From contig CALARM010000142.1 in assembly GCA_937888925.1 (NCBI GenBank), forward strand, positions 1-9,368: a DNA stretch of 9,368 nucleotides. The letters run 5' to 3'. The position numbers were made by a program, and so were the translations under genes. The notes beneath the pieces are model-generated. The model saw nothing but the letters and a program-made list of their open reading frames with translations. It did not search any database and was not told the DNA's origin. This DNA is from an uncultured Synergistia bacterium. Lineage in GTDB: Bacteria > Eremiobacterota > SpSt-956 > JAKJGF01. Positions 1,976-9,368 of this stretch are shown one piece after another. Each line of letters begins with the position of its first letter. Position 1 is the first letter of the stretch.

Positions 1976-2005
1976 GTGGTGAGCAGTAACCTGTCTGCTC
2001 ACCAC
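1976..2005. terminator. Perfect 11-bp inverted repeat between convergent operons
   Basis: GTGGTGAGCAG (1976-1986) and its exact reverse complement CTGCTCACCAC (1995-2005) flank an 8-base loop. The stem lies between the stop of the rightward operon (1968) and the leftward operon, and its last base is the last base of the leftward TAG stop. Neither side has a proper T-run, so it is not a textbook intrinsic terminator. Its position and symmetry fit a bidirectional terminator or an mRNA 3'-end stabilising hairpin shared by both transcripts. Confidence 0.6.
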
Positions 2006-3933
2006 TAAATTTCTCCCCACAGTACAGCTTTGAACCCGCCCCCTTCTGCTCTGGCAGATTCCAGAAGTTTGAGATACCTTTTTGAAGATACAATAAAGAA
2101 TTTACCTTTTTTTATATCAATATTTATATTACCTGCATCTCCATTATCCGGCTTTTCACTGGTCGGTACCGGGTTATTCGGATCTATAGCCACAACTCCA
2201 CCTGTTACATGAAAGACAGGATCTATTTTTACTGCATTGGGATCTATCGCTAATGAACCACTCTGAAATTCATTACTTATTAATGTCATAATAGTGTTCT
2301 TCTGCTCTGCTGTTATAGTACCCGCTCCAAGAGCTGAAAAATTGCCCGGTAAATTTATATCAGGTAATTCACCTGCTACAAAAGGGCGTCCTTCTACAGA
2401 ACCTGAGCATGATGTTATTCCATGTATAGTAAATGAGTTCGGTCCATTTCTTTTGATAAAAGAACCTTCTCCTCCATTAATAAAAATATTCCCTGTACCA
2501 TCGGCAGCAACACCTGTCCTGAAAGGAAGAGACAGAGTATCTGCCGGTTTGAAAAATACAATATCTTCCCACTCTGAAGGCCATTGAGTATTTTCTGATA
2601 TATTATTGGCAGGATTCATCGGATCATCCGGCCGGAGTATACCCATATTTATATTTTCATTACTGTAAACAAGTCCTGTTACATTTATATCCAGTTCTTC
2701 CCTTCTGCTGGACGGAAGTTTCATTGTGAGATCCTTTGATGACATAATTGCCACTCCGGGATCTTCAGGGCCAACTACATTAGATTCTCCTATGAATGTT
2801 CCTTCTCCTGTTATATACACCGAGCCATTTCCTCTGACAGGGCCGGCTACTATAAGATTTCCTCTGTCAACGTACAGTGCAGGCATATGGCTCTCTGTAC
2901 CATCAAGGTATATGCCTGACTCGGCTATATTAATATTCGGGTCATAGTCAGTACTGGAAGGATTTGCGTAGGAATAATCCAGTTCAAATTTTATGTCATT
3001 TCCATTTGTATTGAATAACATATCATCTTTTATATGAAGCTGTCCGTTTTTAACTTCACACAGTGATAATGGAAGCTCCGGTTTTACCCTGTCTTTATAT
3101 ATTACATATGTTGTATTTCCATTAACATCGACTTTGCTTGAAGCAGCAAGAGTATTTCTCGCTTTTTCTATGGTTTTTCCTACGTCTACCGGTTTGACGT
3201 TTTTACTCTGCTGCACCGGATCAACGGAAGAATTATTGTCTGTATCCAGGTTTTTCGAAGGTCCTGATGTTTTAATATCTATATGTCCGTTTGCACTGAC
3301 AATGCCTCCATGAAGAAATACATTTGTTTTGCTTAAACCCTTCCTGGTATGTATGGCAGAACCCTCTATTTCTGTTTTCACACTGTTTGAATGAAGTGTA
3401 CCTGCTTCTGAAGAGTTTTCTGCCGTAGCTTCCTTTCTCAGATCAAAGGTATCTGCGTCTACCATTGTCTGGCCTGATGAAAAAGAGCCGGGATAATTAA
3501 AATCTCTCTGAAGTATAACTCTGAGGCGTTTTGTTATTTTACTGTCACCTCTGTCAACAATGCCTGTAACAATTAAATCTACAGAAAATCCCGGCACATT
3601 TACTCCGCCCCATCCCCCATTTCTTGTCCCCAATCTGAGGTTATTTACCGAGTAATAATCTGCTGTATTATCAAAGGTGATTTCAAATCTTCCGGGAATA
3701 TCTACCATAGGCTTATTCACAGGTGTTTCCCATGTCGGATCTTCATTCAGACAGTATATTGCATAGGCAATACCTGATTCTGCAACCTTTAAAGCCATAA
3801 CTCTGCCTTCTGTAATACTGGTAAATTTATTGTTGTAATAGTTTATTACGACAAGGGATGTAGTAACCATTGTGAGGATTACCGATACCATAAGGATGGA
3901 TATAAGTACCATACCGTCAGAATTATTCTTCAT
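2005..3933 (-). CDS. Large GspK/PilX-like minor pseudopilin, copy B
   Basis: Third gene of copy B, 642 residues from the preferred start. The N-terminus is a class III prepilin signal: MKNNSDG, then a hydrophobic helix MVLISILMVSVILTMVTTSL. Glu at mature position 5 is replaced by Ser, as is usual for GspK/PilX-type tip proteins. The segment LKVAESGIAYAIYCL after the helix matches the PilX N-terminal domain. The rest, about 550 residues, is rich in Gly, Asn, Val and Ser, with beta-type blocks such as GNLIVAGPVRGNGSVYITGE, likely a beta-helix or beta-sandwich exposed outside the cell. The ORF can be read from ATG at 3951, but that ATG falls in what is non-coding leader in copy A. The ATG at 3933 has AAAGGAAG seven bases ahead and gives the same N-terminus as the paralogue at 7051-5144. 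The TAG stop abuts the 1976-2005 inverted repeat. Confidence 0.85.
   Translation of the reverse strand: MKNNSDGMVLISILMVSVILTMVTTSLVVINYYNNKFTSITEGRVMALKVAESGIAYAIYCLNEDPTWETPVNKPMVDIPGRFEITFDNTADYYSVNNLRLGTRNGGWGGVNVPGFSVDLIVTGIVDRGDSKITKRLRVILQRDFNYPGSFSSGQTMVDADTFDLRKEATAENSSEAGTLHSNSVKTEIEGSAIHTRKGLSKTNVFLHGGIVSANGHIDIKTSGPSKNLDTDNNSSVDPVQQSKNVKPVDVGKTIEKARNTLAASSKVDVNGNTTYVIYKDRVKPELPLSLCEVKNGQLHIKDDMLFNTNGNDIKFELDYSYANPSSTDYDPNINIAESGIYLDGTESHMPALYVDRGNLIVAGPVRGNGSVYITGEGTFIGESNVVGPEDPGVAIMSSKDLTMKLPSSRREELDINVTGLVYSNENINMGILRPDDPMNPANNISENTQWPSEWEDIVFFKPADTLSLPFRTGVAADGTGNIFINGGEGSFIKRNGPNSFTIHGITSCSGSVEGRPFVAGELPDINLPGNFSALGAGTITAEQKNTIMTLISNEFQSGSLAIDPNAVKIDPVFHVTGGVVAIDPNNPVPTSEKPDNGDAGNINIDIKKGKFFIVSSKRYLKLLESARAEGGGFKAVLWGEI
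2218..2562 (-). other. Divergent C-terminal module of the copy-B GspK/PilX-like protein
   Basis: Counterpart of 5357-5752, between WPSEWED and TGGVVAIDPNNPVP. It has an NGGEGSFIKRNGPNSFTIHG segment, one cysteine (SCSGS) and no Pro/Thr linker. Flanks are well conserved while the middle is not, so this domain appears to evolve faster than the rest of the protein. Confidence 0.6.
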
Positions 3934-3960
3934 AACAACACTTCCTTTCATAAAATCTTA

Positions 3961-4659
3961 TTACTCCTCAGTATTTTTTAGTATTGCTGTATTTTTTATT
4001 GTTATTTTTTCTTTCCCTGCATTGTCGGAAAAATCCTTCTGAAAAGCAAGCCTGTCTTCCAATATGGATTTTTCTAAAATAATATTTATGTCAACAGCAC
4101 TTTTACTGTCCGGATTATCTGTGAGAATCATTTCATATATATGTTTTGATAGTACTCTTGGTATTCCTATATATTCTTCTCCTGGCACTGATGGAATACT
4201 GTTTGGTTCGTAAAAATATAATTCAATATCTGTCAGCTTTGTATTTGTATAAGGAGCATGTTTTATTACTTTTCTTACAAGTCTTTTTCTGTCACCTGGA
4301 GAACCTGAACATTTTTTATCGGAACTGTCTCTTGGGAGGGTATAATATAGAATATAGGCCTGCCATTTCGGCTCTCCTGTATAGTGATTATATTCTATAA
4401 TACCTTTATCATTCATAGCACTCTGTAATATGGCATATTCTTTCCCCTTACCCCCTATTACGGCAGTTCTTCTGTCGCTCTGAGCAAGATCCTTCAGAAG
4501 GAAATTCATACAAATAGATGACTCCTGCTGTGTCTCAGTTTTATTCTGCACCAGCTTCCATGATTTAAGACCTGTGCTGAACATAATAGTAATAGCAAGT
4601 AAAAAAATAGAAAATATTACTGTTGTCAGCATTAATTCCAGTGTTGTATGTCCTTTCAT
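3961..4659 (-). CDS. GspJ/PilW-like minor pseudopilin, copy B
   Basis: 232 residues. The N-terminus MKG-HTTLELMLTTVIFSIFLL is a prepilin peptidase site with Gly at -1, Glu at mature position 5 and a hydrophobic helix. The usual Phe at mature position 1 is His. After the helix comes a conserved amphipathic stretch, STGLKSWKLVQNKTETQQES, nearly identical to the copy-A protein (7859-7125). The soluble part is a mixed domain with a conserved PKWQAYILYYTLPR block near residues 97-110. By family knowledge, GspJ/PilW proteins join GspI and GspK at the filament tip in the inner membrane and periplasm. The start ATG lies 13 bases after the preceding TAA, with an AAGGAAAGG ribosome binding site in that gap. 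PilW and GspJ cannot be told apart by sequence here. Confidence 0.85.
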   Translation of the reverse strand: MKGHTTLELMLTTVIFSIFLLAITIMFSTGLKSWKLVQNKTETQQESSICMNFLLKDLAQSDRRTAVIGGKGKEYAILQSAMNDKGIIEYNHYTGEPKWQAYILYYTLPRDSSDKKCSGSPGDRKRLVRKVIKHAPYTNTKLTDIELYFYEPNSIPSVPGEEYIGIPRVLSKHIYEMILTDNPDSKSAVDINIILEKSILEDRLAFQKDFSDNAGKEKITIKNTAILKNTEE

Positions 4660-4672
4660 AATAAGCCTTTCC

Positions 4673-5125
4673 TTACTGAGTTTTAAATTCTTCCAGAGTA
4701 ACGGATGTGTTACCTTCCCCTGTTGTTCCTTTGCTTATTACTGTAACACTGACACTTTTTAACCTGTTACCTGTTCCCGGAACATATGAAACTTTTACTT
4801 TATAAAAATAAACTGTTCCTCCTGTATCGGAAAGTGTTTCTGATGGGTAAGGGGAAGGAGGAAATTTAATGCCATTATTATCAGAGTCTGTCGCCTGATC
4901 AAAGGAAGGCTTTGAGCCGTCAAAGATGCCAACTTCTACGTCAGTATAGGTCATAAGCATGATTTTATTCAATATTCCCTCTGCAAGGTTTATATCTGTT
5001 ACTTTTTTGGCGGTTTTTTTTGATGCAGAAAGGCCGCTTATGAATACGGAAGAAATGGATACTATAATGATACCGAGAAGAAAAATACCGATTACTACCT
5101 CGGCAAGAGTAAAACCTTTTTTCAA
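4673..5125 (-). CDS. GspI/PilV-like minor pseudopilin, copy B
   Basis: 150 residues. MKKG-FTLAEVVIGIFLLGIII is a canonical type IV prepilin signal: Gly at -1, Phe at +1, Glu at +5, then a membrane helix. A conserved SVFISGLSASKKTAKKVT amphipathic segment follows, then a short beta-rich domain containing KFPPSPYP and GTVYFYKVKVSYV. This size and domain match GspI/PilV-type pseudopilins, which with GspJ and GspK form the filament tip. The start is TTG; the in-frame TAA 18 bases upstream is the stop of the preceding gene and there is no ATG between. GGGAGG lies 12 bases upstream, rather far, and directly follows that stop codon, so translation is probably coupled to the end of copy A. The paralogue at 8380 also starts with TTG. 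Confidence 0.85.
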   Translation of the reverse strand: MKKGFTLAEVVIGIFLLGIIIVSISSVFISGLSASKKTAKKVTDINLAEGILNKIMLMTYTDVEVGIFDGSKPSFDQATDSDNNGIKFPPSPYPSETLSDTGGTVYFYKVKVSYVPGTGNRLKSVSVTVISKGTTGEGNTSVTLEEFKTQ

Positions 5126-5143
5126 TTTATCTGAAGGCCTCCC

Positions 5144-7051
5144 TTAAATTTCGCTCCAGAAGATACACCGGAAATTGACATTACTCGATTCGCTGAAGTC
5201 CAGAAGTTTAAGATATTTCGGTGAAGATATTATGGATACATGTCCCTGTCCTATAGAAACCTTGATATTCCCTGCTGTATTTGTATCAGGATTGGATTTG
5301 CTGGGAACGGGATTGTTGGGATCCACTGCTACAAGACCTCCTGTGAAAGAAAAATTGGGAGGGATTTTTTCTGCAGTGGCTGACGGCGTCGGAGTTGGGT
5401 TAGTACTTCCACCACCGGAACCAGAACTAGAAACTCCTGAACATTTATCAAGCAATTGAGCCATTATTGTATCTGCTTCATAGTTTTTTATATAAGTGCC
5501 GCTAATATCACTTCTACCGTCTTCATCTTTAATACCAGTCTTCTCATTTATGATCAGGATATGAAATCCCTCTGTCCCTCCACCACCTGTACCGACATTG
5601 ATCGTCAGTGTATAGCTGCCATCAGCATTTCTTGTAAGGGTACCGGTAGTTCCACCATTAAGCTGTACATCTATTTTGATATCATTATTTTTGTAGCCAT
5701 AAATAGGCAGATCATATGATGGCTGGCTTGTTTCCGTTGCTCCTCCCGAACCATCTTCCCAGTCATCAGGCCACGGAGTTGCTGCAGTATTCTTAGCAGG
5801 ATTTACTTCACTGTTCGGATCGAGGATGTTGATATTTATATTTCCATGACTGTAGACAAGACCGGTAATACTTTGATCTAAAGCCTTTTTCTTACTGGAA
5901 GGTAATTCCATGGAAACATTACCTTTACTGACAACTGCCACACCTGTATCATCAGAAGCAACTATATTTGTTTCCCCTATAAGGGCAGTGTCCCCCGATA
6001 CATAACATGAACCATTTCCTGTTATCGGGCCTGCAACCTTCAGATTTCCCTGATCTACATATAATGACGGTGAATTGCCGTTTTTATCTTTTTCCAGATA
6101 TATGCCTGCATCTTTTGACTTATCGTTTAATTCGAATTTTACATTACCGGTAAAAGCAAGATCTTCTTTTATATAAAGTTTACCCTTTTTAACTTCGCAG
6201 GAAGCAGGCAGAGTTGACGGACCCTTTACATCATCTTTATTAATTACATAGGTGCCTCCTGTCAGATTACTGGATACTTTCTTTTTCCCGTTACTGATAA
6301 TTTTATCCAGATCCAGAGGTGTTACATTTTTACCAGGTGAGAAAGGAGCCGTTGTTGAATCTGTATCAAGGTCAGAAATCTTAACCTCACCCTGTGCAGT
6401 GGCTTTACCGCCATGTAATAACACTTTAGAGTTCTTTGTATCTATGGCAAAACCATCGATGCCTGCTCCTGTTTTGACACTGTTTGAATGAATGTTTCCT
6501 GAAATACCCGGATTTTCTTTTGTAGCTTCTGTTTTTATATCTGCCGTATTGGCATCTACTGTGGTCTGGCCGCTTGAGAAAGAACCGGGATAATATATAT
6601 CTCTCTGCAGTATGGCTCTGATACGTTTTACAGATTTAACTTCGTCCTTTCCTGCATAGCCTGTTACAATAAGCTCAACTGAATGTCCGGGAACACCTTT
6701 CCCGCCCCATCCGCTTAAAACTTTTTCATCTGTGGCATCATTTTTTAAATTATTTACCGAATAATAAGGCTTTGTTCTGTCAAAGGTTATTTCGAACCTT
6801 CCGGGCACACCTGTCATAGGAACACTGACGACCTGATTTGGTTCCCATGTCGGATCTTCTTTAAGACAGTAGATTGCATAGGCTACTCCTGCTTCTGCAA
6901 CCTTGAGGGCTGATGCATTATTTTCTGCTCTGTTTGTAAAGCCCAGATTGTAGTAATTAAGGACAACCAGAGAACTGGCGACCATTAATAGAACTACTGT
7001 CACCATGAGAATAGATATAATTACTATACCTTTATTTGAAGATTTTTTCAT
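5144..7051 (-). CDS. Large GspK/PilX-like minor pseudopilin, copy A
   Basis: 635 residues. MKKSSNKG-IVIISILMVTVVLLMVA is a prepilin-type signal with Gly at -1 and Ser instead of Glu at mature position 5, a hallmark of GspK/PilX-type tip pilins. LKVAEAGVAYAIYCL (49-63) matches the PilX N-terminal domain. Residues 70-430 share many blocks with copy B, including PGSFSSGQTTVDA, LHGG, CEVKKGKLYIKED, YVDQGNLKVAGPITGNGS and ITGLVYSHGNI. Residues about 434-565 form a distinct module ending in a Gly/Ser/Pro/Thr linker (SSSGSGGGSTNPTPTPSATA), after which homology resumes with TGGLVAVDPNNPVP. Usual GspK or PilX proteins are roughly 170-330 residues, so this is oversized and probably carries an exposed tip domain. 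Start ATG with GGTGG seven bases ahead; the stop overlaps the ribosome binding region of copy B. Adhesion is a plausible role but is inference. Confidence 0.85.
   Translation of the reverse strand: MKKSSNKGIVIISILMVTVVLLMVASSLVVLNYYNLGFTNRAENNASALKVAEAGVAYAIYCLKEDPTWEPNQVVSVPMTGVPGRFEITFDRTKPYYSVNNLKNDATDEKVLSGWGGKGVPGHSVELIVTGYAGKDEVKSVKRIRAILQRDIYYPGSFSSGQTTVDANTADIKTEATKENPGISGNIHSNSVKTGAGIDGFAIDTKNSKVLLHGGKATAQGEVKISDLDTDSTTAPFSPGKNVTPLDLDKIISNGKKKVSSNLTGGTYVINKDDVKGPSTLPASCEVKKGKLYIKEDLAFTGNVKFELNDKSKDAGIYLEKDKNGNSPSLYVDQGNLKVAGPITGNGSCYVSGDTALIGETNIVASDDTGVAVVSKGNVSMELPSSKKKALDQSITGLVYSHGNININILDPNSEVNPAKNTAATPWPDDWEDGSGGATETSQPSYDLPIYGYKNNDIKIDVQLNGGTTGTLTRNADGSYTLTINVGTGGGGTEGFHILIINEKTGIKDEDGRSDISGTYIKNYEADTIMAQLLDKCSGVSSSGSGGGSTNPTPTPSATAEKIPPNFSFTGGLVAVDPNNPVPSKSNPDTNTAGNIKVSIGQGHVSIISSPKYLKLLDFSESSNVNFRCIFWSEI
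5357..5752 (-). other. Divergent C-terminal module of the copy-A GspK/PilX-like protein
   Basis: This coding segment (residues about 434-565) lies between two blocks conserved in both paralogues: WPDDWED before and TGGLVAVDPNNPVP after. It is hard to align with its counterpart at 2218-2562. Only faint matches remain: an NGG...TLTRN...SYT pattern and TIM followed by LL near the end. It ends in a Gly/Ser/Pro/Thr linker that the other copy lacks. Confidence 0.6.
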
Positions 7052-7094
7052 AAAATAACCACCATTCCTTTCTTTTTATAAAATCGTGACAGAA

Positions 7095-7118
7095 ACCTTC
7101 GTCCCCTGTAGGCGAGGT
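7095..7118 (-). other. Small hairpin in the 73-base linker of copy A
   Basis: On the plus strand ACCTTCG (7095-7101) pairs with CGAGGT (7113-7118), six pairs with one bulged T and an 11-base loop. It sits between the GspJ-like stop (7125) and the GspK-like start (7051). Copy B has no matching element. It could slow RNases or tune stoichiometry; chance is possible at this stem length. Confidence 0.3.
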
Positions 7119-7124
7119 CATTGA

Positions 7125-7859
7125 CTATTGCGTATTATTTAACATCACAGTATTTTTTATTATTATTTTTTCTTTGCCTGCAGTGTCAGAAAAATCTTTT
7201 GTAAAAGCCAGTCTGTCTTCCAGCATAGATTTTACTATGGTAATCTCTATGTCGATTGCATTTGCATTCTCAGAATTTTCTTTCAGATCCATTTCATATA
7301 CATGCCTGGATAATACTTTTGGTTTCCCTATAAATTCCTCTCCTGAAGTTTTTACGTCAATATCATTAAAGTATGTTTCAAAATTCTTTAATTTTTCGTT
7401 GTTAAAGGGGGTATGTTTTATTATCTTTCTTATGAGCTTTTTCCCTAACCTGGGATTATTTGGATCAAGAGTACCGGGAATAGTAGAAGGATCTGTCAGA
7501 ATCATAGAAAATTCTTTACCTTTTTTACTCCTGGGAAAAGTGTAGTATAGAATATATGCCTGCCATTTCGGTTTCCCTGTGGTATGGTCATATTCATAAA
7601 GGCCGAACTCATTTATATCACTCTGCAGTATGGCATATTCATAGCCTTTCCCACCTATTGTTGCAGTAGATTTATCTGTATGGAGAAAATCTTTTACAAG
7701 AAACATATTACAGATAGACGCTTCCTGCTGTGTCTCAGTTTTATTCTGCACCAGATTCCACGATTTCAGTCCTGTACTGAAAATACTGGTAAGAGCAAAT
7801 AAAAATATAGAAAATATTACTACTGTTAACATTAATTCCAATACTGAATGACCTCTCAT
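7125..7859 (-). CDS. GspJ/PilW-like minor pseudopilin, copy A
   Basis: 244 residues. MRG-HSVLELMLTVVIFSIFLFAL gives a prepilin site with Gly at -1, His at +1 instead of Phe, and Glu at +5, then the membrane helix. STGLKSWNLVQNKTETQQEA follows and is nearly identical to copy B. The soluble domain keeps PKWQAYILYYTFPR and the C-terminal LEDRLAFTKDFSDTAGKEKI block. A longer loop near residues 111-135 (with DPSTIPGTLDPNNP) explains most of the 12-residue size difference from copy B. The start ATG has AGAGG six bases ahead. It is separated by 62 bases from the GspI-like gene and by 73 from the GspK-like gene, far looser than copy B. By family knowledge it would act at the inner membrane as part of the tip trimer. 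Confidence 0.85.
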   Translation of the reverse strand: MRGHSVLELMLTVVIFSIFLFALTSIFSTGLKSWNLVQNKTETQQEASICNMFLVKDFLHTDKSTATIGGKGYEYAILQSDINEFGLYEYDHTTGKPKWQAYILYYTFPRSKKGKEFSMILTDPSTIPGTLDPNNPRLGKKLIRKIIKHTPFNNEKLKNFETYFNDIDVKTSGEEFIGKPKVLSRHVYEMDLKENSENANAIDIEITIVKSMLEDRLAFTKDFSDTAGKEKIIIKNTVMLNNTQ

Positions 7860-7883
7860 GATAAACCTCTATTATAATCGTCA

Positions 7884-7902
7884 CCTGTCAAACAGCAACA
7901 GG
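7884..7902 (-). other. Small hairpin in the 62-base linker of copy A
   Basis: CCTGT (7884-7888) and ACAGG (7898-7902) form a five-pair stem with a nine-base loop, between the GspI-like stop (7922) and the GspJ-like start (7859). It ends about 25 bases before the start codon, upstream of the AGAGG ribosome binding site. The stem is short, so function is uncertain. Confidence 0.25.
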
Positions 7903-7921
7903 AAACCATTAAATTTGAATT

Positions 7922-8380
7922 TTACTGGCTTTTAAACGTTTCCAGTGTTGTACCTGTTATCCCTTCTGAGCCTGCCCCTGCGCTTGTTACTGTTACAATG
8001 ATACTTTTTACTTTACCACCGGTGCCGGTGACATCATGTACTGTTACTTTATAAAAATAGACAGTTCCGCCTTTCCCACCCGTACTGCCGGGTATTTCGA
8101 AGGGATAAGGAGATGGAGGAAATTTAACCCCATTTATTACAGTCTGTGATGTTGGAGGTTTCTGCGAGCCGTTAAAGGTACCTGTGCTTATTTCGCTGTA
8201 GTTCATAAACATAATCCTGTTTAACATCCCCTCTGCAAGACTGATGTTTGTAACTTTTTTCCCTGATTTTTTTGCTGCAGAAAGACCGCTTATAAATACA
8301 GACGTAATTGTAATTATAATAATACCCAGCAGAAAGATACCAATTACTACTTCTGCAAGAGTAAAAGCTTTTTTTCTCAA
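7922..8380 (-). CDS. GspI/PilV-like minor pseudopilin, copy A
   Basis: 152 residues and first gene of the six-gene pilin operon. MRKKA-FTLAEVVIGIFLLGIII is a type IV prepilin N-terminus with Phe at +1 and Glu at +5, but Ala replaces the usual Gly at -1. Ala is one of the few tolerated residues at that place, so processing is probably slower rather than absent. The region after the helix (SVFISGLSAAKKSGKKVT) and the GTVYFYKVTVHDV strand block match the copy-B paralogue (5125-4673). The start is TTG, fixed by the prepilin motif and by GAGGA six bases upstream; no in-frame ATG fits. The leader from the promoter at 8428-8457 is about 40 bases. GspI and PilV types cannot be separated on this evidence. 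Confidence 0.85.
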   Translation of the reverse strand: MRKKAFTLAEVVIGIFLLGIIIITITSVFISGLSAAKKSGKKVTNISLAEGMLNRIMFMNYSEISTGTFNGSQKPPTSQTVINGVKFPPSPYPFEIPGSTGGKGGTVYFYKVTVHDVTGTGGKVKSIIVTVTSAGAGSEGITGTTLETFKSQ

Positions 8381-8427: not shown

Positions 8428-8457
8428 ACTATAACATAAAAATTAAGCTAAAGTCAA
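8428..8457 (-). promoter_or_regulatory. Sigma70-type promoter of the pseudopilin operon
   Basis: Read on the minus strand, TTGACT (8457-8452) and TATAGT (8433-8428) are 18 bases apart, and TG one base upstream of the -10 gives an extended -10 (TGTTATAGT). Transcription would start near 8421, about 40 bases before the TTG start at 8380. This is the only good promoter found ahead of the six pilin genes, consistent with one operon. Confidence 0.65.
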
Positions 8458-8696: not shown

Positions 8697-9368
8697 TCAT
8701 ACTTCTACAATATCACCGATGACTTCACCGTTGATAGCTCTTTTTTGTTGTGCTATAAGATAATCATTTATATCGGTCTGTTCTTTTATTGCTCTTTCAA
8801 GATGCATATCCAGAATTTTTCTTACAGATATACCTGCTTCATTGCAGTAAACCAGATCTGCATAATATTTGGCAAGGCTGACGACTCTGAGCCATTTATA
8901 ACAGCTATCGTAATAGACCTGGGAACGGGGAATGGAATCTGTTATGAGCACTCTGAGACCTGACCGGTATAGTTTTTCTTCTGTCAGGATTTTGCTGTTT
9001 GCATCTATATTAAAAAGACCATGTGTTGCACATGCATAAACCTGTGTGGCTCCGTTGTCTTCCAGGAGTTTTGCTCCGTTTACAATGGAGCCTCCCGTGC
9101 AGATCATATCATCTATCATAATGGCAATCTTTCCGTCTACATCTCCGAGAAGGGCTTTGGATACGGCTTCTTTCCCTTTTTCCCTTTTCTTATATATGAC
9201 TGCCACATCTGCGCCAAGGCAGTTGGCAAGTTTTTCTGCCCTTGTTGTTCCGCCTGCATCAGGCGATACTACTACTACTCTTTTTTCTTTTAATTCTTCT
9301 GCCAGTTTTACCTTGTAGTAGAGTACAAATAGGGGGAATGCGGCAATTTTATCTACAGGGAGATCTGT
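8697..9368 (-). CDS. prs: Ribose-phosphate pyrophosphokinase (PRPP synthetase), 3' part
   Basis: The last 223 residues of Prs; the 5' part lies beyond the right edge. The enzyme transfers pyrophosphate from ATP to ribose 5-phosphate, making PRPP for nucleotide, histidine and tryptophan synthesis in the cytoplasm. Visible landmarks, in order: LPVDK near the fragment start, VVVVSPDAGG (about 31-40), the flexible catalytic loop YKKRE (59-63) keeping the Lys and Arg positions, GDVDGK, the ribose-phosphate loop IDDMICTGGS (85-94), the YACATHGLF strand and TDSIPRS. In the loop, Cys stands where most family members have Asp (DDMIDT). After the segment that aligns with the usual C-terminus there is an extra tail of about 37 residues, including LERAIKEQTDINDYLIAQQK. 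The frame is open to the window edge; an internal GTG at 9206 is not the start, because conserved Prs sequence continues upstream of it. It runs toward the pilin operon but is separated from it by about 316 bases, so co-transcription is doubtful. Confidence 0.9.
   Translation of the reverse strand, partial: TDLPVDKIAAFPLFVLYYKVKLAEELKEKRVVVVSPDAGGTTRAEKLANCLGADVAVIYKKREKGKEAVSKALLGDVDGKIAIMIDDMICTGGSIVNGAKLLEDNGATQVYACATHGLFNIDANSKILTEEKLYRSGLRVLITDSIPRSQVYYDSCYKWLRVVSLAKYYADLVYCNEAGISVRKILDMHLERAIKEQTDINDYLIAQQKRAINGEVIGDIVEV

Follow-up and report, generated by a model that had tools for sequence, protein, structure and literature searches.

Minor pilins start the assembly of the filaments of type II secretion and type IV pili and remain at the filament tip (PMC12075869, PMC7541494). 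The concept of alternative tips has already been shown in Myxococcus: the Kil (Tad) pili of M. xanthus are described with four KilLMN tips, any one of which suffices for polymerization (PMC12075869), and three clusters of minor pilins and PilY1 serve one type IVa pilus machine (PMC7541494, PMC9109919, PMC13190605). Duplicated minor-pilin operons with different functions are also reported for X. fastidiosa (PMC9956873). A further tip subunit, ComZ of T. thermophilus (PDB 6QVI), is described as a pilus-tip DNA receptor that combines a GspK-like pilin domain with a beta-solenoid (PMC6561018). Here, we analyze a stretch of 9,368 nucleotides (the window; contig CALARM010000142.1) from an uncultured bacterium placed in Eremiobacterota by GTDB. 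It carries two tandem cassettes of minor-pilin genes, I1-J1-K1 and I2-J2-K2.

We propose that these cassettes, duplicated as a unit, are alternative tips on pilus machinery encoded elsewhere, a reading to which we give an even chance. Each cassette would provide a filament of the type IV kind with a tip complex, in which I and J are the base and K is the cap. The predicted ComZ-like K, with its beta-solenoid, would expose a fast-changing recognition module. Cassettes without their own motor or platform would plug into machinery encoded elsewhere, and a different cassette would give a different filament tip. What we infer is the position at the tip, a role of the module in recognition, alternation, and a sharing of machinery in the organism of the window.

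The locus resembles each of the described systems in part. Like ComZ, K1 would be a large tip pilin with a GspK-like pilin domain and a beta-solenoid before the last strand (PMC6561018); it differs in having an extra hypervariable module and no detectable sequence similarity, and it comes as I-J-K, in tandem. The Kil loci, as described, also comprise several paralogous three-gene minor-pilin clusters that provide alternative tips for one pilus (PMC12075869), but these are four clusters of another pilin class shown by experiment, compared with two in tandem here and more in a relative, known from sequence alone. In M. xanthus, a single type IVa pilus machine uses alternative tip operons, as we propose here, but its reported tip adhesin, PilY1, comes with four minor pilins (PMC7541494, PMC9109919, PMC13190605). 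In the window, the large subunit is K itself, and no PilY1 search was made. The paralogous operons of X. fastidiosa differ in function, as the cassettes here would, but are described with another gene set and in two separate genome regions (PMC9956873). Finally, gene order and the GspJ fold of J1 recall the GspI-GspJ-GspK triad of the type II secretion system (T2SS), whereas K1 lies far below the cut-off of the GspK model and has a beta-solenoid. What is new is the phylum, the number of cassettes, the ComZ-like K in which one module is hypervariable and, in one relative, a K ending in an intein-like Hint domain.

If alternative tips are indeed encoded, type IV filaments of a little-studied phylum would be multi-tool devices with tip sets far exceeding their assembly platforms, and the hypervariable K module would mark the site where ligand choice evolves. 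The idea, so far demonstrated in Myxococcus, would then cover a further phylum and include tips of the ComZ-like kind. Moreover, the natural duplicate pairs could be used to find the surfaces that decide partner choice in the tip complex.

Duplication and divergence of the I-J-K cassette

The six genes are intact open reading frames without stops, all on the minus strand, and an initial annotation of the window had correctly described them as six leftward genes in two copies of the same order. In both copies, the genes are co-directional in the order I-J-K, as in the T2SS triad. Amino acid identity between the copies is 65% for I (147 aligned residues), 63% for J (228) and 48% for K (607), and the copies are therefore homologous and not alike by chance. 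Synonymous divergence (dS, NG86) amounts to 1.16, 1.10 and 1.56 for I, J and K, and nonsynonymous divergence (dN) to 0.25, 0.25 and 0.49. These values indicate a similar, long divergence time under purifying selection (dN/dS 0.22-0.37 by NG86 and LWL85). Neither copy is decaying in the window according to these ratios and the lack of stops, a possibility that the initial annotation had raised against its own interpretation. Its further claim, that divergence is moderate in the helices and strong in the exposed parts, holds for I and J, with 78% and 80% identity in the first 50 alignment columns, but fails for K, where these columns are only 48% identical.

From I1 to K2, the intergenic gaps measure 62, 73, 18, 13 and 9 bases. 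The 18-base gap between K1 and I2 contains no minus-strand terminator-like site; the nearest lies just inside I2 (5105-5086). The two cassettes are spaced as in one operon and may be produced jointly. If made together they might also mix, yielding hybrid I/J/K tips or a mixed filament population in place of regulated alternatives, and the similar first 50 columns of I and J would suit such exchange. However, strong divergence is seen in the exposed parts of both J and K, where the two would have to pack together, and we consider mixing improbable.

Separate trees for I (17 sequences), J (22) and K (27) were built from database matches and some genes of G001, a related genome reached through a prs gene 90% identical to that of the window. 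The K tree contains a K1-type clade of six rows and a K2-type clade of five (support 100/100 each), which form a group of 13 with two further sequences (100/99). In the J tree, clades of four and five rows (each 100/99) lie inside a group of 12 (99/99). The I tree has an I2-type clade of three rows (99/98), and its I1-type rows form no resolved clade. Both K types are found in two metagenome-assembled genomes (MAGs), ABRQ37 and ABRQ39. ABRQ39_05355 (K1-type) and ABRQ39_05370 (K2-type) are three locus-tag steps apart on one 30,566-base contig, and ABRQ37 encodes the K1-type ABRQ37_02800 as well as the consecutive I2-, J2- and K2-type genes ABRQ37_20915/20920/20925; ABRQ38_23250 is J1-type. A third lineage is placed near the split of the copies (K proteins P0007 and P0008, J protein P0025). 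In the K tree it clusters with the K2 type (93/93), and its J placement lacks resolution.

The copy-type clades in the K and J trees and the presence of both K types in two MAGs support a duplication of the block as a unit, which predates the divergence of these MAGs. The initial annotation had named a common node in separate trees as the sign of such a unit duplication; J and K bear this out with both copy clades, and I agrees as far as it is resolved, namely for copy 2 only. Furthermore, the copies cluster by type and not by genome and have thus not been homogenised. This grouping, the two K types in ABRQ37 and ABRQ39 and the purifying selection between the copies argue against redundancy, in which the paralogues would be retained by chance or for dosage and have no separate roles. 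Such redundancy would agree with the frequent multiplication of these genes in relatives and is, in our estimate, unlikely.

The K protein and its hypervariable module

The predicted structure of J1 has the GspJ fold expected of a T2SS triad. For K1, the best Foldseek match is ComZ of Thermus (PDB 6QVI). The K1 model comprises an N-terminal helix (residues 6-65), pilin strands (75-150), a beta-solenoid, a variable module and a last strand (627-634). This is the ComZ-type architecture, in which a beta-solenoid interrupts the pilin domain ahead of its last strand, as seen in a modest-confidence model of K1 only. With modest confidence, K1 can be called ComZ-like in fold, with DNA binding as no more than a possible function. 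The modeled folds of J1 and K1 would fit a tip role. K does not reach the GspK family model NF037980, with which K1 scores 11.9 bits (cut-off 130) and K2 is not listed. The Verru_Chthon model TIGR02599 is not reached either, with 12.0 bits for J1 and 11.2 bits for J2 (cut-off 256.5).

Among six K1-type proteins, identity reaches 0.8-0.97 in 15 of 22 forty-column segments of the alignment and 0.68 at columns 201-240. It drops to 0.67 and 0.51 at the module edges and to 0.19-0.27 in the module core (residues 445-538; four segments, columns 561-720). In three K2-type proteins, a count from which P0010, almost the same as K2, and the incomplete P0013 had been set aside, identity is 0.32-0.71 in those four segments and 0.30 in the next. 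The sharpest divergence of K is a single module nearer the C-terminus, bordered in the K1 model by low-confidence linkers. Two kinds of K1-type module can be distinguished by shuffle z-scores: one in WIN_K1, P0002 and P0003 (22-25) and another, more remote one in P0004-P0006 (22-48 within that set), with cross-type scores of 3-17 that are possibly raised by common Gly/Ser/Pro-rich linkers. The modules of K1 and K2 of the window show no clear similarity to each other (shuffle z 2).

One K of G001 (G001:C25, L072:6615-9074) continues through a Ser/Gly-rich linker into an intein-like Hint domain at its C-terminal end. NCBIfam models intein_Nterm (27.2 bits, cut-off 24.5) and intein_Cterm (25.6 bits, cut-off 15.6) match it, and five Pfam Hint-type models stay below their cut-offs.

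Putative tip cassettes and pilus machinery in related genomes

Of 58 genomes found as relatives, G001 included, 32 have a J match and 29 a K match (E <= 0.001). In G001, 13 places detected by the J profile and two more by contig reading give 15 J loci on 14 contigs. Eleven are in I-J-K order, ten of them in one direction (including C218, which is cut by the contig end and has weak matches) and one with a broken K frame. Two more have I-J but lack a K, one of them at the end of its contig; one is K-I-J and one K-J. The broken K (G001:C369, L069 3635-5723) consists of a 98-residue frame with its apparent rest in another frame, through either decay or an assembly error.

No T2SSE, T2SSF or secretin match was found on any of the 14 cassette contigs; most contigs of G001 are short. 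The whole of G001 has 32 T2SSE matches on 20 contigs, eight T2SSF matches and one secretin match (C316, at the contig edge), and its platform proteins are confined to two loci, on C405 (one) and C40 (three). Cassettes therefore outnumber platforms, not ATPases. Such an excess, 15 J loci over two platform-protein loci with the cassettes apart from the machinery, was found in G001 only. A further tree holds 46 J proteins, 17 of them from G001 and the window, and 11 of these 17 fall into one group (90/97), a result favoured by taking only one J from each of the 29 other genomes. Putative tip genes that lie apart from the machinery, are more numerous than the platforms and change fastest in a single exposed part fit the pattern of alternative tips.

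Several observations weigh against this reading. ATPases are not scarce in G001, and its mostly short contigs allow linkage to be judged over short distances only. In G018 (C21), a J-K pair adjoins GspE and GspF genes, and machinery-linked forms therefore exist too. The match between K1 and ComZ has low whole-chain TM-scores (0.18-0.23) and a large root-mean-square deviation, and the K profile gave no sequence match to solved chains at E <= 10. In addition, the operon-like spacing in the window would suit joint production as much as alternation.

The cassettes might also serve a T2SS-like secretion pseudopilus and each select a different cargo. The T2SS tip is GspI-J-K, J1 has the GspJ fold and one K of G001 carries a C-terminal Hint domain, a feature of processed secreted proteins. 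We regard this as a minor possibility because K1 matches ComZ, not GspK, and G001 has only one secretin match, at a contig edge. Alternative tips may, more tentatively, be part of a genome-wide library of plug-in tips kept by the lineage (about 15 cassettes for about two platform loci). In such a library, the K module would be rapidly changed or replaced, the Hint domain of one K could serve to attach cargo to the end of the pilus or to release it there, and the pair in the window would be a local addition.

Taken as a whole, the interpretation given in the initial annotation, alternative or hybrid tips on one filament, is partly supported. It missed the many cassettes in the related genome and the single K module as the site of sharpest divergence.

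Tandem multiplication occurs elsewhere as J-J-K-J-K-K in G011:C24, as J-K-J-K in G015:C40 and as four K-like genes in G025:C116, where PilX_N is above its cut-off in the one K-like gene scanned. These four genes (L105) encode 741-792 residues in tandem, with no I or J detected between them. T2SSF domain matches number 86, 57 and 76 in the 7-8 Mb genomes G017, G018 and G027, which would correspond to about 30-40 GspF-like platform proteins each, if there are two domains per protein.

Prepilin N-termini and surroundings of the locus

Prepilin N-termini had been assigned to all six genes. By eye, cleavage motifs (cut at the slash) are G/FTLAE in I2, A/FTLAE in I1, where Ala replaces Gly before the cut, G/HSVLE in J1 and G/HTTLE in J2, each with Glu at position 5. 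K1 (G/IVIIS) and K2 (G/MVLIS) are without Glu at position 5. Pfam N_methyl stays below its cut-off of 21.2 bits for I1 (18.5), I2 (19.3) and J1 (13.2), with J2, K1 and K2 not among the matches of that scan. TIGR02532 is above its cut-off for I2 (18.5 vs 16.3 bits), and the other five genes (I1, J1, K1, J2 and K2) are not among its matches. The large K ectodomain would also suit adhesins that are secreted or anchored in the membrane and have a pilin-like signal without ever becoming part of a filament. This is very improbable, because filament assembly needs a conserved I-J-K set such as this one, in which I and J have Glu at position 5.

Coordinates are collected in Table 1. Promoter-like sites in the region are not above chance in total (25 observed, 22.3 +/- 5.1 in shuffles); the one at 8457-8428 is a plausible transcription start for the I1 cassette.

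Table 1. Features of the tandem minor-pilin cassettes in the window
Feature	Position	Strand	Description
I1	7922..8380	-	GspI/PilV-like minor pilin, copy 1; 152 aa, TTG start; family models below cut-off; 65% identical to I2
J1	7125..7859	-	GspJ-fold minor pilin, copy 1; 244 aa
K1	5144..7051	-	Predicted ComZ-like tip pilin, copy 1; 635 aa
I2	4673..5125	-	GspI/PilV-like minor pilin, copy 2; 150 aa, TTG start; TIGR02532 above cut-off
J2	3961..4659	-	GspJ-like minor pilin, copy 2; 232 aa; assigned through 63% identity to J1
K2	2005..3951	-	Putative ComZ-like tip pilin, copy 2; 648 aa; assigned through 48% identity to K1 over 607 residues
Hypervariable module of K1	5369..5752	-	Residues 434-561; from identity among six K1-type sequences
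Variable module of K2	2230..2562	-	Residues 464-574; placed by alignment with the module of K1
Promoter-like site upstream of I1	8428..8457	-	10/12 match, extended -10

The downstream neighbours of the block, coiled-coil-like and HEAT-repeat genes, lie on the plus strand, and upstream the block is flanked by a phosphoribosyl-pyrophosphate synthetase-like gene (prs, 8697-9368) that is cut by the window end. The record of G001 is titled 'Bacillota bacterium isolate UR.bin48', whereas the closest named proteins of the cassette are labelled Candidatus Eremiobacterota; one of the two labels is probably wrong. In G002:C103 (L115) and G009:C52 (L111), I-J-K directly follows nucleoside phosphorylase-like and phosphopentomutase-like genes (judged by eye only); the cassette of the window follows prs.
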